32,181 nucleotides of DNA from Bacillota bacterium (GTDB taxonomy: Bacteria > Bacillota > Clostridia > Peptostreptococcales > Anaerovoracaceae): contig JAFRZB010000024.1 of the NCBI GenBank assembly GCA_017442785.1, positions 1 through 32,181 of the forward strand, given 5' to 3'. Each line of letters begins with the position of its first letter. The first letter of the stretch is position 1. Below the pieces are notes generated by a model that was not told where the DNA came from, did no database searches, and saw only the letters and a program-made list of their open reading frames with translations. Shown piece after piece: positions 16,524 to 24,018 of this stretch. Made by a program: the position numbers and the translations under genes.

Positions 16524-16571
16524 GGATGCATCCGGAAGGCGGCAGAGCCTGAAGGATGCATCCTTTTTATT
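16524..16571 (+). terminator. Terminator after PFOR
   Basis: The self-complementary decamer GGATGCATCC occurs at 16524-16533 and again at 16554-16563, enclosing a small GGC/GCC hairpin, and is followed by TTTTTATT. A short GCCC-GAAA-GGGC hairpin at 16496-16507 precedes it. Together they should stop transcription from PFOR. Confidence 0.8.
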
Positions 16572-16598
16572 GTCTGTATGGTCCTGTGGTGGTATAAT
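16570..16598 (+). promoter_or_regulatory. Promoter of the phosphopolymer/choline operon
   Basis: -35 TTGTCT (16570-16575), 17-base spacer, -10 TATAAT (16593-16598) preceded by TGG, an extended -10. It overlaps the PFOR terminator tail. The predicted start near 16605 leaves only about 8 bases before ATG 16613, so the first gene has almost no leader. Confidence 0.75.
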
Positions 16599-16612
16599 CA
16601 AAAGAACGTATT

Positions 16613-18211
16613 ATGGACGATACAATGACAAAAAAGAAAAACACTTCGGCAGTCCGGCCTCTTGCGGCAGCTGCCATGATAATAGCAGCTTCGGCTCTTG
16701 CTGAAGAACTGATATTCCGCGGACTGCTGGTGCCTGGGATCAACGGCAACTGCAGCTTCTTTGGCATAGTCTTTTCCTCTGCGGTCTTTGCCGCAGCGCA
16801 TCTTATTGCGGGGAAAGGTGAAGGCCCCCGCCGCATGCTTATGCGTTTTGCCTATACAATGTCGGCCGGCCTTATCCTCGGTGTTTCTGCTGCCGCATCC
16901 GGCGGCATACTTCTTCCTTTCGTCCTTCACTGCGCGGTAAACCTTGCTTTAGCCGCGCGGTACGGTCACGTTATCACTCCGCTCTCTCTGTACATAGACC
17001 CCGGCACCGGAAGCATGCTGTTTACGGTGCTCATCGGAGTTATAAGCGCGGCGGTCTATTCCGTAAGGCTGTTTGCGGTAAAGCTTAAAATGCGCGTGGG
17101 CAGCAAGGGCGCTGAGGAGGAAGAAAAGACTCCTCTTGTGGTATTCTCGGACAACAAGCGCTACTGGAACGTCTTTGAGCCCGTCTGCAGGGAGCTTTCC
17201 GCGCGGGGCAGGAAGATCACCTATCTTACCGCCTCCGAAGACGATCCGGTGTTTAAGTGCGGCATCGAAAACATTAAGGCGGAATACATAGGCTCCGGCA
17301 GCAGCATGTTCGGACGCCTCAACAACCTGAACGCGTCCGTGGTGCTCTCCACCACGCCCGGACTGGACGTCTACCAGTGGAAGCGCTCTGCTAAGGTGGA
17401 TAAATACGTTCACATACCCCATGCGGCAAGCGAAATAGTGCTCTACCGCATGTTCGGGATAGATTACTACGACAGCGTCCTGCTCTCAGGAAAGTACCAG
17501 GAGGAGGACATACGGGCCCTGGAAAGCCTAAGGAAGCTTCCTGCAAAGGACCTTGTCATGGCCGGCATTCCTTATATGGATGAGATGGCAAAAAGGTTTG
17601 CCTCAGCAGGCCCTGCGCCTGAACATCCTCTGACGGTCCTGCTTGCACCGTCCTGGGGAAAGAGCGCCATATTCTCCGTCTACGGCGGCAATATAATAGA
17701 CGTGCTCCTCAAGACAGGATATCATGTGATAGTCCGTCCCCACCCGCAGTCCGCGCAGTCAGAAAAGGAGCTCCTGGACGGCATAATGGCCGCCCATCCG
17801 GCTTCGGACCGCCTCGAATGGAACTTCGACACGGACAACTTCGAGGTGCTCAGAAGATCCGACATACTCGTCTCGGACTTCTCGGGCGTCATATTCGATT
17901 TCACCCTTATATACGATAAGCCCGTCATCTATACGAATCCCGACATAGACCTTTCCCTCTACGACGCCTGGTGGCTGGACAAGCCGATTTGGACGGCTTC
18001 GGCGCTTCCCAGGCTGGGGAGGATGCTTACCGATGACAACATGGAGGACCTCAAGTCCCTCATTGACGAATGCCTCACGGATCCCCGCTACGAGCAGGGA
18101 AGGAAAGAGGTAAAGGCCGAAACCTGGGCCTTCCCCGGACTCGGCGCAAAGAAGGCTGCGGATTACATAGAGTCCCTGCTCAGTGATAATGTAAAGAAGG
18201 AAGATAAATGA
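16613..18211 (+). CDS. Fusion: CPBP intramembrane metalloprotease domain + CDP-glycerol-type glycerophosphotransferase
   Basis: 532 residues in one uninterrupted frame. Residues about 15-120 are a compact CPBP (Abi/CAAX-like) membrane protease core with all three motifs: EELIFR (E31, E32, R36), FAAAH (F59, H63) and HCAVN (H106, N110). A link with the segment YIDPGTGSMLF (127-137) and a further membrane helix (about 136-155) lead to a cytoplasmic domain (174-522) of the Glyphos_transf family: IPHAASE (His270), RPHP (His377) and SDFSGVIFDF (421-430), the histidine and donor-site motifs of TagF-like enzymes that add glycerol-phosphate or related units. Almost no leader precedes ATG 16613 and the ribosome site is poor; ATG 16625 is an alternative start. 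The next gene begins one base after the stop. The fusion is unusual and its biological role is not known to me. Confidence 0.85.
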   Translation: MDDTMTKKKNTSAVRPLAAAAMIIAASALAEELIFRGLLVPGINGNCSFFGIVFSSAVFAAAHLIAGKGEGPRRMLMRFAYTMSAGLILGVSAAASGGILLPFVLHCAVNLALAARYGHVITPLSLYIDPGTGSMLFTVLIGVISAAVYSVRLFAVKLKMRVGSKGAEEEEKTPLVVFSDNKRYWNVFEPVCRELSARGRKITYLTASEDDPVFKCGIENIKAEYIGSGSSMFGRLNNLNASVVLSTTPGLDVYQWKRSAKVDKYVHIPHAASEIVLYRMFGIDYYDSVLLSGKYQEEDIRALESLRKLPAKDLVMAGIPYMDEMAKRFASAGPAPEHPLTVLLAPSWGKSAIFSVYGGNIIDVLLKTGYHVIVRPHPQSAQSEKELLDGIMAAHPASDRLEWNFDTDNFEVLRRSDILVSDFSGVIFDFTLIYDKPVIYTNPDIDLSLYDAWWLDKPIWTASALPRLGRMLTDDNMEDLKSLIDECLTDPRYEQGRKEVKAETWAFPGLGAKKAADYIESLLSDNVKKEDK

Positions 18212-18212
18212 G

Positions 18213-20840
18213 ATGTCTTTAGGCGCCATACTTGAGACTATCTTCATAGGGCCGCTGAAGCTGGTGTTCGAGGTGATATTCCAGCTTGCGTACATGCTGG
18301 TAGGGATACCCGGTGTCTCCATCATCTTTTTGAGCCTGGCCATGAACTTCCTGGTGCTGCCCCTGTACAGGAGGGCGGATGCCATGCAGATGCAGGCAAG
18401 GGATACCGAGGCGAGGCTGAAGAAGGGCATGGATCACATAAAGAAGACCTTCTCCGGCAGCGAGCGAATGATGATACTTCAGACCTACTACCGTCAGAAC
18501 GATTACTCGCCTCTGAACGCGCTGCACGGGTCCATATCCCTGCTTTTGGAGATACCTTTCTTTATGGCCGCTTACCAGTTCCTTTCGCATCTGGAGCTCC
18601 TGCGGGGCGTCAGCTTCGGTCCCATAGCGGACCTGGGCGTCCCCGACGGGATGATAAGCATAGGCGGCACGGCCGTCAACGTCCTTCCCATACTTATGAC
18701 GCTCATAAACTTCGCCTCCGCGGCCCTGTATCTTAAGGGCTTCCCGCTCAAGACGAAGATCCAGACCTACGGAATAGCGCTGGTGTTCCTGGTATTCCTG
18801 TACGATTCCCCTGCGGGGCTCGTGTTCTACTGGACCCTCAACAACGTGTTCTCGCTGTGCAAGAACATAGCCTACAAGATCGCCGGAAGGGCAAAGAAAG
18901 AAAAGAAAGAGAAAAAAGAGAAGAATGCTTCTGCGCGCAGGCCTGCAGCGCCTGACAGAAAGCTGTTCATTTCTGCCGCAGTATTCCTGACGCTTCTTAC
19001 GGGGCTTCTGATACCCTCTACCTACGTTGCGGCGTCTCCGCAGGAATACTTCGATACGACACTGAACTTCAGCCCGCTGTGGTACATAGTCAGCTCGGTC
19101 TGCCTTGCCGCGGGCATATTCTGCTTCTGGTTCGGCGTCTTCTACTGGCTTGCCGGTGCAAGGGGCAAGGTGGTCTTCGAAAGAGTGCTCTGGTGCTTTT
19201 GCGGCGCTGCCGTGGTGGACTACATGTTCTTCGGCACCGGGATGGGAGTGGTCTCCTCTGTGCTCAAGTACCAGAACGGGTTGTGGTACTCATTCCTTGA
19301 AGGCATACTTAACATCGTTGCCGCCGCGGCGGCTGCGGCGCTTCTGTACTTTATTGCGCGGAAGTTCAGGAACCTGCCCAAGTCTGTCCTTGCCATAGCC
19401 TCCGCCGCCGTATTAGTGATGTCCGGCATAAACATAGTTAAGTCCGGCGCTTCCATAAGAGATGCCCGGGAGAACGGCAGCGACGCCTTCGCGCACTTTA
19501 CCTTCAGCAAGGAAGGAAAGAACGTGGCAGTCCTCTTCCTGGACCGCGCCATGGGAGAATACATACCTTATATAATTAACGAAAAGCCGGAGCTTAAGAA
19601 GACCTTCGACGGATTTACCTATTATTCCAACGTCATCTCCTTCGGCGGACACACCAACATGGGTGCGCCGGCCCTTATGGGGGGCTACGAATACACCCCC
19701 GTGGAGCTGAACAGGAGGGGGGATGAATCCCTTAAGGACAAGCACAACGAGTCCCTTAAGGTGATGCCTGTGATGTTCCTTAAGGAAGGGTTTAACGTCA
19801 CTGTCTGCGACGCGCCCTACGCCAACTACAAGTGGATACCGGACATGTCCATTTACAGCGAATGGCCCGAGATCAACACCTTCATAACCAAGGGAAAGTT
19901 CAGCAGCCTTGAAAACAAGAAGCTCATGGCAGAGAGGAACAAGCGCAACTTCTTCTGCTTCTCCCTCATGAAGACCATGCCTCTTGCTGTGCAGCTGGGC
20001 ATGTACGACGACGGCAACTACCTTATGGCCGGTGACCATCTCTCCGTAGTCCAGACATGGTATGGCACCTCCAGAGCAACAGGCATCAGCGAGTCTTTCA
20101 TGGAATCGTATCAGGTCCTGCAGAATCTCAGCAGCATGACAAGGATAAGCAGCGGAAGCGACAACAACTACCTGTTCTTCTACAACGATCTGCCTCACGA
20201 GACCATGCTTCTTAAGGAGCCTGAATACGTCCCGTCAGAGGAGGTGGACAATACCGAGTTCGACAGCCTGCACAAGGACCGTTTTGCAGCGGGAGGACGC
20301 AGGATAGACATCTGGGGCGCCGAGCAGATGGCGCATTACCAGACCAACATGGCGACGCTCATGCAGATAGGGGAGTGGCTGGACTACCTGCGGGCAAACG
20401 GAGTATACGACAACACAAGGATAATACTCGTGGCGGACCACGGATACTATCTCTATCAGACACAGGAGCTTATACACCGCGAGAACGGCCGCAGGGTGGA
20501 CATAGGCAACTATTTCCCGCTCCTCATGGTAAAGGACTTCGGAAGCACCGGCTTTACCGTCTCCGATGAGTTCATGACGAATGCGGATGTGCCCTCGCTC
20601 GCGGCAGATGACATAATACAGCATCCCGTAAACCCGTTTACGGGCAGGGACATAGACATGAAAGAGAAGACCGCGCACGACCAGTTCATAATAATGTCCA
20701 GGGACTGGAGCGTGGACTCCAACGGCGGAAACACCTTTAACCCCTCCGGATGGGCCGCGGTAACGGACGACATCTGGGACAGGGATGACTGGATCTTCAT
20801 AAACGACGATATAGTGCTTACAGAGCATAAGATACCTTAA
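18213..20840 (+). CDS. Fusion: YidC/Oxa1-like domain + sulfatase/LTA-synthase-like phosphotransferase
   Basis: 875 residues. Residues 1-225 follow the YidC/Oxa1 insertase pattern, including the NDYSPLNALHGSISLLLEIP loop and SPAGLVFYWTLNNVFSL (199-215), but the position of the functionally important groove arginine in the first core helix is Asn45. A Lys-rich linker (228-250) and about five membrane helices (250-410) lead to an extracellular alkaline-phosphatase-superfamily domain (about 435-830): LFLDRAMGEY (Asp444, metal ligand), SFGGHTNMGAPALMGG (Thr481, possible nucleophile), His708, and ADHG (Asp742, His743). This is the layout of lipoteichoic acid synthase and phosphoethanolamine transferases. 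It may attach or polymerise phospho-units on the outer membrane face. It sits between a glycerophosphotransferase fusion and CDP-choline genes. Substrates are inferred only. Confidence 0.82.
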   Translation: MSLGAILETIFIGPLKLVFEVIFQLAYMLVGIPGVSIIFLSLAMNFLVLPLYRRADAMQMQARDTEARLKKGMDHIKKTFSGSERMMILQTYYRQNDYSPLNALHGSISLLLEIPFFMAAYQFLSHLELLRGVSFGPIADLGVPDGMISIGGTAVNVLPILMTLINFASAALYLKGFPLKTKIQTYGIALVFLVFLYDSPAGLVFYWTLNNVFSLCKNIAYKIAGRAKKEKKEKKEKNASARRPAAPDRKLFISAAVFLTLLTGLLIPSTYVAASPQEYFDTTLNFSPLWYIVSSVCLAAGIFCFWFGVFYWLAGARGKVVFERVLWCFCGAAVVDYMFFGTGMGVVSSVLKYQNGLWYSFLEGILNIVAAAAAAALLYFIARKFRNLPKSVLAIASAAVLVMSGINIVKSGASIRDARENGSDAFAHFTFSKEGKNVAVLFLDRAMGEYIPYIINEKPELKKTFDGFTYYSNVISFGGHTNMGAPALMGGYEYTPVELNRRGDESLKDKHNESLKVMPVMFLKEGFNVTVCDAPYANYKWIPDMSIYSEWPEINTFITKGKFSSLENKKLMAERNKRNFFCFSLMKTMPLAVQLGMYDDGNYLMAGDHLSVVQTWYGTSRATGISESFMESYQVLQNLSSMTRISSGSDNNYLFFYNDLPHETMLLKEPEYVPSEEVDNTEFDSLHKDRFAAGGRRIDIWGAEQMAHYQTNMATLMQIGEWLDYLRANGVYDNTRIILVADHGYYLYQTQELIHRENGRRVDIGNYFPLLMVKDFGSTGFTVSDEFMTNADVPSLAADDIIQHPVNPFTGRDIDMKEKTAHDQFIIMSRDWSVDSNGGNTFNPSGWAAVTDDIWDRDDWIFINDDIVLTEHKIP

Positions 20841-20852
20841 GGAGGAACGGAT

Positions 20853-21725
20853 TTGAGCATAAAGGTCGACAATGCCGTGATTATGGCGGCTGGCACTTCC
20901 AGCCGTTTTGCTCCGCTCTCGTACGAAAGGCCCAAGGCCCTTATCGAGGTGCGCGGAGAGATACTCATCGAAAGAGAGATAAAGCAGCTTAAGGACGCCG
21001 GGATAGACGAGATAATACTCGTTACAGGCTACATGAAGGAGCAGTTCGGGTATCTTAAGGACAAATTTGGCATAGAGCTGGTAAACAACCCGGACTATCT
21101 GGTACGCAACAACAACTCCACGCTCTGGGCGGTAAAGGACAGGCTCCGCAACACCTACATCTGTTCTTCCGACAACTATTTTACGGAGGATCCGTTTGAA
21201 AAAGAAGTTGATTATCCGTACTACGCTGCGGTATATTCAAAGGGGAAGACCGCGGAGTGGTGCATGACGGAGGATAAGGACGGCTGGATAGATTCCGTGA
21301 CCATAGGAGGCCATGACGCCTGGTACATGCTGGGCCACGCCTTCTGGGACGAGACCTTCAGCAGGAAGTTCATCAGCATACTTGAGGACATCTACGAGCT
21401 TCCGGAAACGAAGGGACTTCTTTGGGAGGCCATATACATGCGCCGTCTGGACGACCTGAAGCTTAAGATGAGGCGCTACCCGGACGACATGATATTCGAG
21501 TTCGATACCCTGGACGAGCTCAGGGCCTTCGATAAGAGCTACGTAAGCGATACACGCTCGGAGATATTAAAGGGCATAGCGGGAAGGCTCGGCTGCAGCG
21601 AGGCGGAAATAACGGAAGTCAACGCGTATAAGAACGCTGACAACGCCGCCGCCGGGATACGCTTCCGCGCTCTGGGAAAGCATTGGGAATACGATTACAC
21701 AACTCAGTTGGAGAGGAAGATATAA
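20853..21725 (+). CDS. LicC-like nucleotidyltransferase (probable phosphocholine cytidylyltransferase)
   Basis: 290 residues. The N-terminal sugar-nucleotidyltransferase fold shows MAAGTSSRFAPLSYERPKAL (11-30) with the nucleotide-binding loop and Lys28, and SSDNYF with metal-binding Asp107. NNNSTLWAVKD resembles the LicC acceptor region. LicC makes CDP-choline from CTP and phosphocholine. The last 70 residues (from about 225) form an extra C-terminal helical domain beyond the usual LicC length. The start is TTG 20853, with GGAGG (20841-20845) seven bases upstream; no better ATG fits. The choline-kinase-like gene follows after three bases, which supports the substrate. Sugar-phosphate or other aminoalcohol-phosphate substrates remain possible. 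Confidence 0.8.
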   Translation: MSIKVDNAVIMAAGTSSRFAPLSYERPKALIEVRGEILIEREIKQLKDAGIDEIILVTGYMKEQFGYLKDKFGIELVNNPDYLVRNNNSTLWAVKDRLRNTYICSSDNYFTEDPFEKEVDYPYYAAVYSKGKTAEWCMTEDKDGWIDSVTIGGHDAWYMLGHAFWDETFSRKFISILEDIYELPETKGLLWEAIYMRRLDDLKLKMRRYPDDMIFEFDTLDELRAFDKSYVSDTRSEILKGIAGRLGCSEAEITEVNAYKNADNAAAGIRFRALGKHWEYDYTTQLERKI

Positions 21726-21728
21726 GAG

Positions 21729-22625
21729 ATGAGAGAAATAGTTAAGGAAGATCTGCCTAAGATAGCGGCATTGGTAAAGAAAGTCCTCGGCGAGGACAGC
21801 TATGCTTCCGTTGAAAGGCTCGGAGGGCTTACCAACCATTCTTATCATGTGATCCTTAATGACGGCAGGGAATATGTCGTAAGGATACCGGGAGAAGGCA
21901 CTGAAGAACTCATAGTAAGGGGCGACGAGAAGAAGAGCACTGAGCTCGCCTGCAGGGTGGGCGTGGACGCTCAGATGCTCTACTTCGGCGACGACGGATC
22001 CAAGGTGACAGAGTACGTGCCGGGCGCGGTCACCATGTCCGCGGAGACGCTCAAGGATCCCGTACGCATCAAAAAGATGGCCGAGATCTACAAGACCATA
22101 CACAACTGCGGAGAGGATACCGGAGTTCCTTTCGAGGTCTTCGACATGGCCGCGGGCTACGAAAAGATAATAGCGGACCTTAACGTTCCGATGTTCCCGG
22201 ACTTTGCGGAGCAGGAGAAGAAGGTCATGGAGATAAAGAAAGACGTCGACGCTCTGGTGCATCCCGTAAAGGTGCCGTGCCACAACGATCCTCTCTGCGA
22301 GAACTGGGTGGAAGGCAACGGAAGGCTCTATCTGATAGACTGGGAGTACGCCGGAATGAACGACGGCATGTGGGATCTCTCCGACGTATCCATAGAGGCC
22401 TCCTACAGCGAAGCGGAGGACGATCTTCTTCTTGAGGATTATTTTGGAAGAAAGGCCACCGTCACCGATAAAAAGCACTTCCTTGCCAATAAGATCTACG
22501 TGGATTACCTGTGGACGCTCTGGGCAAAGACAAGAGTTCCTTACAGCGGACAGGACATGGAAGACTGGGCAGCCGAACGCTACGCAAGGATGAAGGACAA
22601 CATAGCAGCCTTCGAAAAGCTCTGA
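21729..22625 (+). CDS. LicA-like choline kinase (APH fold)
   Basis: 298 residues of the aminoglycoside-phosphotransferase/choline kinase fold. Seen: N-lobe LGGLTNHSYHV (31-41), where LicA-type kinases bind ATP; the catalytic loop CHNDPLCENWV with His185, Asp187 and Asn192; and the metal-binding LIDWEYAGMND with Asp204. The wording of both C-lobe motifs is that of choline/ethanolamine kinases rather than of drug-resistance enzymes. It would phosphorylate choline for the LicC-like enzyme encoded just before it. In pneumococcus and Haemophilus the pair LicA-LicC feeds phosphocholine to surface polymers through LicD; no LicD is seen in this window. Confidence 0.85.
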   Translation: MREIVKEDLPKIAALVKKVLGEDSYASVERLGGLTNHSYHVILNDGREYVVRIPGEGTEELIVRGDEKKSTELACRVGVDAQMLYFGDDGSKVTEYVPGAVTMSAETLKDPVRIKKMAEIYKTIHNCGEDTGVPFEVFDMAAGYEKIIADLNVPMFPDFAEQEKKVMEIKKDVDALVHPVKVPCHNDPLCENWVEGNGRLYLIDWEYAGMNDGMWDLSDVSIEASYSEAEDDLLLEDYFGRKATVTDKKHFLANKIYVDYLWTLWAKTRVPYSGQDMEDWAAERYARMKDNIAAFEKL

Positions 22626-22640
22626 TAAGGAGGAAGATCA

Positions 22641-23372
22641 ATGGACGGAAAGATGACATGGACAAGCGTCATAACCCCGAGCATGTGCGATGCTTCGGGA
22701 AGGCTCGGCGTGCCCAACTCCTTTGACCTGTTCATGGACATGGCAAGCCTGGATTCCGACAGGATAGGGAACGGCGTAAGGCATCTTCTTCCGAAGGGCC
22801 GGTTCTGGGTAACGACAAAGACTGTCATAAGATTCCATAAAAGGCCGCAGATAATGGACAGGGTGGAGCTCTCCACCTGGCCGGAGGGCGTAGAAGGCAT
22901 AAAGGGCCTTAAGGGCAACAGAGACTATCTGGTGCGCTCTTTAAACGGGGAGGTCCTGCTGGACGGCAAGACCGAATGGACCATGCTGGACAAAAACGCC
23001 AACAACTACGTAGACCTCCACACGGTATATCCGGAGGACTTTGAGTTCTGCGAAGAACAGGCTTGTCCGCAGAGCTATTTCAAGATAAAGGACGATTTTA
23101 CCGAGGCTCCGTTCGCGTCTTACAAGGTGCAGGCGCTTGATACGGATTTCGTTGGCCACATGAACAACGTGGCATATGTCAGGGCTTTCGCCGACTGCTT
23201 CTCTTCGGAGGAGTGGAACAGGATGGATATAAAGGAATTGGAGATCCATTTCAGAAGACCGTGCTTTGAAGGAGACGTTCTGGACTTTTCAAGGCGTCCC
23301 GGACAGGACGGTTATACAGAGGTGCGCGCAAGCGTGGACGGCGCCACCAAGGTAATTCTCAGGTACAGGTAA
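22641..23372 (+). CDS. Acyl-ACP thioesterase
   Basis: 243 residues in the double hot-dog layout of bacterial FatA/FatB-like thioesterases. The first domain holds CDASGRLGVPNSFDLFMDMAS and a KTVIRFHKRP strand; the second begins near residue 155 with the conserved LDTDFVGHMNNVAYVR, where the Asn and His of the active site are expected. It releases fatty acids from acyl carrier protein. It has a good ribosome site (AAGGAGG at 22627-22633) and follows the choline kinase by 15 bases, so it belongs to the same transcription unit. A role in supplying or trimming acyl chains of a membrane anchor is possible but not shown. Confidence 0.9.
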   Translation: MDGKMTWTSVITPSMCDASGRLGVPNSFDLFMDMASLDSDRIGNGVRHLLPKGRFWVTTKTVIRFHKRPQIMDRVELSTWPEGVEGIKGLKGNRDYLVRSLNGEVLLDGKTEWTMLDKNANNYVDLHTVYPEDFEFCEEQACPQSYFKIKDDFTEAPFASYKVQALDTDFVGHMNNVAYVRAFADCFSSEEWNRMDIKELEIHFRRPCFEGDVLDFSRRPGQDGYTEVRASVDGATKVILRYR

Positions 23373-23385
23373 AGGAGACAGAGCC

Positions 23386-24018
23386 ATGAGAAGAAAGGAT
23401 CTTGAGGTAAAGGGAAAAGAGAACATAGAATCCATTATAGTCAGATGCAAGAGCCTGAGGCTGGGGATGATAGAGAGCGGCAAGCCCTACGTCCTGCCCT
23501 TCGTATTCGGGTATAAATGGGACGATTCCGGACTTAAGCTGTACCTGCACAGCAGCATAGTAGGAAGAAAGCGCAGCGCGCTCACAGAAGGCGCACTGGT
23601 TGCCTTTGAGATGGACCTGGACGAGGGTCTTATGGGGATGGGCCTCAATGCCAACACCTACACAAGAGCTTTTTCCGCGGTGATGGGAGAGGGCACCGTA
23701 AGCTATGCCCAGTCTCCCGAGGAGAAGATATCCTTCTTCAACTACATAATGAAACACCAGACCGGCAGAGAAGGGTTCAGCTTCAACTCTGCCTATCTGG
23801 CGGTAACAAGGGTATTCGTTATAAATGTCGATATGGACACTCTTTCTGCTTCCATGAAGGAGCTGGATACGAACCGGTATCTTCCCGAGCATTTTCCGGA
23901 GGGAGTAGCTCCTGTTCCGACAGCACCTTCGGTGCCGCTTCCGGTAAAGCCGCTTGAGATGCCGAAGTACGAGCCGGATGACAGGTTCACGGAACCAAGT
24001 GAAGACGAGTTCTACTGA
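23386..24018 (+). CDS. Pyridoxamine 5'-phosphate oxidase-like (Nim-type) flavin-binding protein
   Basis: 210 residues with the split-barrel flavin-binding fold of the NimA/PPOX group. Typical features: RCKSLRLGMIESGKPYVLPFVFGY at the start of the barrel, KLYLHSSIVGRKRSAL as the flavin phosphate-binding segment, VAFEMDLDE, YTRAFSAVMGEGTVSYAQSPEEK, and a conserved KHQTGREGFSF loop. Members reduce nitroimidazoles or bind other flavin/heme substrates; most have unknown natural substrates. A Pro-rich, acidic tail (about 168-210) follows the fold. Good ribosome site AAAGGAG. It is the last gene of the operon and converges with the CYTH gene, overlapping by seven bases. Confidence 0.82.
   Translation: MRRKDLEVKGKENIESIIVRCKSLRLGMIESGKPYVLPFVFGYKWDDSGLKLYLHSSIVGRKRSALTEGALVAFEMDLDEGLMGMGLNANTYTRAFSAVMGEGTVSYAQSPEEKISFFNYIMKHQTGREGFSFNSAYLAVTRVFVINVDMDTLSASMKELDTNRYLPEHFPEGVAPVPTAPSVPLPVKPLEMPKYEPDDRFTEPSEDEFY

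Follow-up and report, generated by a model that had tools for sequence, protein, structure and literature searches.

What do two multi-domain membrane enzymes have to do with the two enzymes of cytidine diphosphate (CDP)-choline synthesis encoded directly behind them? The question is raised by a stretch of 32,181 nucleotides (assembly GCA_017442785.1, contig JAFRZB010000024.1, positions 1 to 32,181; hereafter the window) from a Bacillota bacterium of the clostridial family Anaerovoracaceae, in which an operon of six plus-strand open reading frames (ORFs) spans 16613-24018. Its first gene encodes a PF04464 (Glyphos_transf)-type transferase, here called Gly, the second a fusion of a YidC-like domain to a sulfatase-fold transferase, and the third and fourth LicC and LicA. 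The unit that recurs, found in 17 genomes, is smaller than the six-gene operon and consists of Gly and the YidC-sulfatase fusion. We lean, with somewhat less than even confidence and on the strength of comparative sequence evidence, towards reading it as a machine for transferring head groups at the cell surface, comprising a loader, a passage and an outer transferase for phosphocholine, with a CDP-choline supply of its own.

Full-length fusions occur in 5 of the 148 genomes of the family set, and the class set has the fusion in 12 of its 391 genomes, the window's genome included (G282 was dropped, its match covering 48 query residues); the 17 genomes with the unit also include L010, a metagenome-assembled genome of a Clostridia bacterium from sheep omasum that came from a scan of contigs with at least one relative. 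Copies per genome range from one to at least four, giving 31 fusion proteins altogether with that of the window. In 16 of the 17 genomes, all but G385, a Gly gene sits no more than about 10 kb from a fusion, and Gly is present in 18 of the 23 fusion regions fetched outside the window (18 from the class set, L010 and four from the family). The concern that the neighbourhood might prove scattered is thus answered for Gly and not for licC and licA, which outside the closest relatives are swapped for phosphonate genes or absent nearby. The two lic genes directly follow the two membrane enzymes in all three sampled genomes of the genus, namely that of the window, G038 and G113. Since the PFOR and CYTH genes on either side are common to G038 and the window, the agreement of G038 is partly plain synteny; the flanks of G113 differ. 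LicC stands beside the unit at a contig end in L010, where LicA (71%) starts another contig, and lic genes are found near the unit in G258 and in G135, the latter with LicA, a LicC-kinase fusion and four choline-binding-type repeat proteins just upstream of the unit. The repeat proteins are consecutive and occupy the space between lic genes and unit (L046:3112-10362). In G144, licC and licA are on a contig other than the unit's.

Gene 2 (18213-20840) consists of a YidC-like domain at about residues 1-225, further hydrophobic segments and a sulfatase-fold transferase at about residues 430-875. The YidC-like domain matches 60KD_IMP (PF02096) with E 2e-21 and 77 bits against a cut-off of 35, and the transferase matches the Pfam Sulfatase model with E 1e-5 and 25.1 bits against a cut-off of 25. 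Five residues of the latter, D444, T481, H662, D742 and H743, are invariant in all 31 aligned fusions; by analogy with LtaS they would be the metal ligands and the threonine nucleophile, and their invariance is fitting for an active site of the LtaS/PptA type. The YidC-like domain is distinctive at N45, which aligns with the groove arginine of E. coli YidC (R366): this position is N, S, Q or T in all 31 fusions versus R or K in 24 of the 25 unfused YidC-like proteins of the family whose loci came from the fusion search. Because the groove Arg/Lys is replaced in every fusion, the fused domain probably does not serve as an ordinary insertase. Lipid scrambling by E. coli YidC in vitro is described in passages of a preprint (PMC10491306), so that the YidC-like part could possibly pass a loaded lipid across the membrane. 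Plasmid relatives, from 16 records, match the YidC part only, in every case. With the fusion as query and E up to 0.001, G038 gave one second YidC homologue and the window's genome (G000) and G113 gave none, an absence that may reflect incompleteness or low sensitivity.

Gene 1 (16613-18211) begins with a CPBP/Rce1-like intramembrane protease domain at about residues 16-111 (Pfam E 5e-14), followed from about residue 127 by a membrane anchor (YIDPGTGSMLFT) and by the transferase proper (Glyphos_transf, E 2e-10). Against the PF04464 family profile Gly scores 40.7 bits (cut-off 22.1) with a match spanning only positions 151-297 of 367, and a profile built from the C-terminal part of 20 Gly relatives matches the TagF-like enzyme Cps3D (E 4e-8) and TarL (E 9e-4). 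A CPBP-sized N-terminal extension is present in 2 of the 20 Gly rows, that of the window (by Pfam) and that of G038 (by alignment), the remaining rows being judged from length. The anchor is far more constant, its short YIDP motif (of the type YIDPGTGSM) occurring in all 20 Gly proteins of the window's form and in none of the 31 YidC-sulfatase proteins.

Relatives in which the same parts are permuted between proteins provide good evidence for a four-part machine in which anchor, YidC, Gly and sulfatase act jointly. In G097, G129 and G133, all of the window's family, YidC is fused to Glyphos_transf within one protein (60KD_IMP E 6e-35 to 2e-31; Glyphos_transf E 8e-9 to 1e-7). A separate sulfatase-type gene adjoins this YidC-Gly gene in G097 (profile E 4e-13) and G129 (1e-16), only the protein of G129 exceeding the Pfam Sulfatase cut-off, and none was recognised beside the YidC-Gly gene of G133. 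In this re-cut form the YIDP anchor is in none of four Gly proteins, one of which (G014) begins at a contig end and could lack its YidC part for that reason, and in seven of eight sulfatase-type proteins, those of G001 and G092 lying on short contigs without a visible Gly. For the eighth, in G129, a variant YLDPST stands in a small ORF two genes away, beside YidC-Gly. The motif occurs in 0 of 368 ORFs from 20 control regions. The re-cut unit of G097 has a LicC-LicA fusion gene as its divergent neighbour, and in G001 such a gene lies about 1.4 kb upstream of the YIDP-type sulfatase gene. In G014 a Gly gene is directly followed by four tandem YIDP-anchored sulfatase-type genes (L153:1224-9493).

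The supply of the presumed cargo is encoded by gene 3 (20853-21725, TTG start) and gene 4 (21729-22625). Gene 3, an NTP transferase by Pfam, matches the CTP:phosphocholine cytidylyltransferase 1jyk with E 5e-39 and, by hand count on that alignment, keeps W136 and W191 and carries D105S, Y190L and D192E; W136, Y190 and W191 are what we take to be the aromatic choline-site positions, and D105 and D192 come from passages of papers. Its C-terminal tail of about 60 residues (window 21534-21725) resembles by eye the beginning of a kinase domain, which would suit an origin of this LicC by truncation of a LicC-LicA fusion (compare L046:1228-2994). Gene 4 matches the Pfam choline kinase family (E 4e-19) and the choline kinases 3dxq (E 1e-44) and 4r77 (E 1e-43). 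When compared, again by hand count, with the choline-site residues given for Streptococcus pneumoniae LicA in passages of PMC4364537, it has T29, D176, Y197, E213, W251 and W254 identical, with Y268 as W and V178 as L, whereby the four aromatic positions of the quaternary-amine pocket are still aromatic and the Glu is kept. These matches and the pocket alignment support the original proposal that LicA and LicC make CDP-choline, and because the choline pocket of LicA is conserved, phosphocholine appears the likeliest cargo of the operon's machine. We considered LicC as a PntC with a phosphonate pathway of its own and judged this unlikely, as LicA is adjacent and no phosphoenolpyruvate (PEP) mutase was found in the genome of the window, G038 or G113; a salvaged phosphonate would still be an admissible LicC substrate.

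In more distant relatives the unit keeps company with other pathways that activate head groups. The one-strand arrangement of G280 reads YidC-sulfatase, a nucleoside triphosphate (NTP) transferase-CTP_transf_like-PEP mutase protein, iron-containing alcohol dehydrogenase (Fe-ADH), phosphonopyruvate decarboxylase and Gly, the second of these being a 671-residue triple fusion whose NTP transferase part is PntC-like (L120:4964-6976). Phosphonate genes also lie by the unit in G526, G454 and G258, the region of G258 containing LicC-type genes and LicD as well, and overall a head-group-type gene (lic, phosphonate, or NTP transferase in G303 and G436) is present in the fetched unit region of 11 of the 17 genomes. 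PEP mutase was found in 11 of the 17 unit genomes (not in G000, G038, G113, G144, G303 and G403) versus 3 of 63 others (Fisher 3e-7), the comparison genomes being a non-random choice of G149-G202 plus nine selected ones. LicC-like proteins (E up to 1e-30) are in 7 of the 12 class-set unit genomes versus 17 of 379 others, LicA is in 7 of the 9 family genomes with a strong Gly (E below 1e-27) versus 14 of 139 others, and choline-binding repeats, which are also known from proteins without choline binding, show a weak difference (5 of 12 fusion genomes versus 33 of 379). At the level of regions, 20 other stretches of the same contigs served as controls, of which one had PEP mutase and decarboxylase and none had LicC or LicA; the resulting enrichment of 8/20 versus 1/20 (Fisher p 0.02) was relied on little, the queries coming partly from the same loci. 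The tree of Gly proteins adds a single instructive case. The Gly proteins of G280 and G436 are sisters (support 100/100, 74% identity) and share their neighbours NTP transferase (58%) and Fe-ADH (46%), whereas the sulfatase proteins that accompany them are 41% alike and do not cluster. Because Gly groups with the nucleotidyl pathway there and the sulfatases do not, the case points to Gly as the enzyme that would use the nucleotidyl product. NTP transferases fused to a CobD-like aminotransferase/decarboxylase occur near Gly in G303 (L122:3093-5009) and near licC and licA in G144 (L130:5964-7775); such proteins could make a donor of the cytidylyl-ethanolamine type.

Under the head-group transfer reading, LicA would phosphorylate choline and LicC would convert the product to CDP-choline, from which the cytosolic, membrane-anchored Gly would load phosphocholine onto a membrane carrier, either an isoprenoid phosphate or a lipid of the diacylglycerol type. 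The YidC-like domain would then present the loaded lipid at the outer face, and the sulfatase-fold domain, with its Thr nucleophile and metal site, would hand phosphocholine to a teichoic-type polymer or a glycan at the surface. Relatives might use the machine for phosphonates, delivered as cytidine monophosphate (CMP) esters. The phosphocholine supply is the firmest of these steps, the lipid carrier and the role of YidC the least certain.

Several observations weigh against this picture. Adjacency of licC and licA is limited to the closest relatives, the LicC of the operon is altered at three of the five choline-site positions compared, and the fetched unit regions of 6 of the 17 genomes (G144, G204, G231, G347, G385 and G403) hold no head-group genes. 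The co-occurrence counts are uncorrected for relatedness, 8 of the 17 unit genomes belonging to the genus g151, and two of the three PEP mutase positives among the comparison genomes (G345 and G472) are fusion-free members of that same genus. Some of the LicC-like matches are about 29-35% alike and may be of PntC type, and with the window's genus and L010 left out the regional difference in LicC/LicA or PEP mutase is weak (6/20 unit regions versus 1/20 controls). Choline-binding repeats above threshold were absent from the window's genome, G144 and G148 and gave one match each in G038 and G113. A sulfatase-type protein near a LicC-LicA gene in G347 (L161:4421-6115) is without the YIDP motif; it was left out of the eight counted above, no Gly being seen in its fetched region. 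Finally, Lys is kept in the groove by all three YidC-Gly proteins, and we consequently rejected loss of groove charge as a general feature of the YidC parts.

The main rival concerns the donor. Gly might be a CDP-glycerol or CDP-ribitol transferase making a lipid or polymer of the teichoic type, to which the YidC-sulfatase protein, acting like LtaS or GacH, would add glycerol phosphate from phosphatidylglycerol on the outside; phosphocholine from LicA and LicC would decorate the product in a separate step, an explanation that deserves serious attention, although we give it a minority share of belief. To our knowledge the PF04464 enzymes so far characterised all use CDP-glycerol or CDP-ribitol, which also counts against head-group loading by Gly, and membership of that family, together with the profile matches to Cps3D and TarL, is what this rival would predict, as is the weak match of the sulfatase-fold profile to lipoteichoic acid synthase (4uoo, E 0.007). 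To the same side belong the six genomes without head-group genes in their fetched unit regions and a gene for a glycerol-3-phosphate cytidylyltransferase (TagD-type, above cut-off) about 8 kb from licC and licA in G144. It fits less well with Gly going with NTP transferase and Fe-ADH genes in G280 and G436, with the association of the unit with PEP mutase and LicC-like genes, and with Gly being the sole PF04464 protein found in the window's genome.

Two further rivals leave the donor chemistry aside and concern the destination and the nature of the cargo. It was claimed at the outset that LicD is lacking, which is true of the operon, none of whose six proteins matches LicD in Pfam, and had to be given up for the genome, in which (at 80% completeness) two LicD genes lie on contig C33 together with genes for a glycosyltransferase, a Wzy-like protein, a flippase and two LicC-like proteins. 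These offer a possible phosphocholine route that would compete with the machine proposed here, and the operon might merely supply CDP-choline to them, the pair of membrane enzymes standing beside the lic genes by chance. We regard this as improbable, even if no LicA homologue besides that of the operon was found in the genome, the LicC and LicA of G056 (52% and 50%) lie beside LicD-like proteins in a genome without a full fusion match, and the flanking genes shared with G038 make conservation partly a matter of synteny; the gene order persists in G113, whose flanks differ, and in L010 as far as the contig reaches, the unit co-occurs with head-group genes in the counts given above, and C33 has LicC-like genes of its own in surroundings suggestive of aminoethylphosphonate. 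At the two positions occupied by Glu in the aminoethylphosphonate enzyme Tde-PntC, both LicC-like proteins of C33 also carry Glu, and the ABC transporter of C33 resembles aminoethylphosphonate importers with scores under the model cut-offs (PhnT2, 324.6 bits against 457.7; phnS2, 165.7 against 392.75). The permease of this transporter is fused to a LicC/PntC-like cytidylyltransferase, one of the two LicC-like proteins (L042:2597-7057 and L042:5-871). The contig looks more like phosphonate salvage than choline handling, possibly salvage that leads straight into surface decoration, which leaves room for another phosphocholine transferase in this genome; the earlier suggestion that the part of LicD may fall to one of the fusion proteins stays live. 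The remaining rival, to which we assign the smallest likelihood of all, has LicC and LicA acting on ethanolamine or another amino-alcohol, so that the cargo would be phosphoethanolamine. The substitutions in LicC (S105, L190 and E192 for pneumococcal D105, Y190 and D192) and the NTP-CobD-like fusions of G303 and G144, which might make such head groups, would suit it; the LicA pocket, with its aromatics retained and its Glu kept, and the choline-binding-type repeats beside the unit of G135 argue for choline.

How the head-group transfer reading relates to known systems can be seen from its parts. LicD is the main known route by which phosphocholine and phosphonates pass from cytosolic CDP and CMP donors to the outer surface. 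Pneumococcal lic1 (LicA, LicC, LicD) likewise has a choline kinase and a CTP:phosphocholine cytidylyltransferase, and the repeat proteins of G135 recall it; the operon, however, has neither LicD nor a LicB-like gene, and contains a Glyphos_transf enzyme and the YidC-sulfatase fusion instead. LtaS and GacH belong to the same superfamily as the sulfatase part of gene 2 and combine a membrane part with an outer sulfatase-fold domain; we know of no YidC domain in either, in contrast to gene 2, whose profile resemblance to LtaS is in any case slight. PptA and EptA, which transfer phosphocholine and phosphoethanolamine, are also transferases of the alkaline phosphatase superfamily and work in Gram-negative bacteria with phospholipid donors, whereas the transferase of the operon has a fused YidC-like domain and is linked to Gly and a CDP-choline supply. 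The cargo of PptA is phosphocholine, which it transfers to pilin according to passages of PMC10434233. TagF, TarL and Cps3D resemble the C-terminal part of Gly by profile, but Gly is short, carries the YIDPGTGSM anchor and has lic, phosphonate or NTP genes in the unit region of most genomes (11 of 17). The Pnt clusters have in common with it that a zwitterionic head group is cytidylyl-activated before transfer, PntC being a LicC relative; the text of PMC6697681, whose abstract describes the later phosphonyl tailoring steps as enigmatic, mentions LicD once and sulfatase, YidC and glycerophosphotransferase nowhere. No description of the unit appeared among the literature matches listed, as judged by title and start of abstract, with most subscription journals outside the scope of the search.

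We accordingly treat the unit as a variant of known surface-decoration pathways and consider it rather unlikely that it stands for an undescribed class of envelope machine, in which a Gly loader, an insertase-derived YidC passage, a shared anchor and an outer sulfatase-fold transferase would bring head groups activated by cytidylylation from CDP or CMP donors to the outside, phosphocholine, phosphonates and perhaps phosphoethanolamine being interchangeable. If such a class did exist, it would do for phospho-head groups what three-component systems do for sugar transfer; lineages would differ in how its domains are distributed over two proteins, and YidC would have been retooled away from protein insertion. 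In either case the unit names specific candidate genes for the outer-surface head-group transfer step in this bacterial class, and a YidC domain fused in two ways to phospho-group transferases offers a testable case of the insertase fold being reused in envelope lipid or head-group handling.

The operon as a whole is less conserved than the unit. Six genes with short gaps were described initially, and the ORF positions confirm this, the gaps being 1, 12, 3, 15 and 13 bases; that the six form a self-contained pathway is not supported, nor do we retain them as a conserved system, genes 5 and 6 and the CPBP domain not being kept in relatives. Gene 5 (22641-23372) is an acyl-ACP thioesterase-like gene by Pfam, with a thioesterase of 33% identity at the same place in G038 and no relative in the region of G113, and gene 6 (23386-24018) encodes a pyridoxamine-phosphate-oxidase/Nim-like flavoprotein (Pyridox_ox_2, E 4e-7) without relatives among the fetched regions of genus, family, class and L010; after LicA, G113 has no relative of either. 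The CPBP domain, the thioesterase and the flavoprotein thus appear to be lineage-specific additions. A defence role is not indicated, PADLOC giving no match for the six operon proteins. The promoter, initially called strong, is a good consensus match (TTGTCT-17-TATAAT with an extended TG, 16570-16598, plus strand, 10 of 12 positions) and no more than that, the consensus scan, which returned 10 promoter-like sites in 9 kb against 5.4 expected from shuffles, being all that stands behind it. At its borders the operon is set off by an upstream PFOR gene that ends in a GGATGCATCC...GGATGCATCC-TTTTT hairpin, seen by eye and absent from the output of the scan that gave the promoter-like sites, and by a convergent CYTH gene that overlaps its 3' end.

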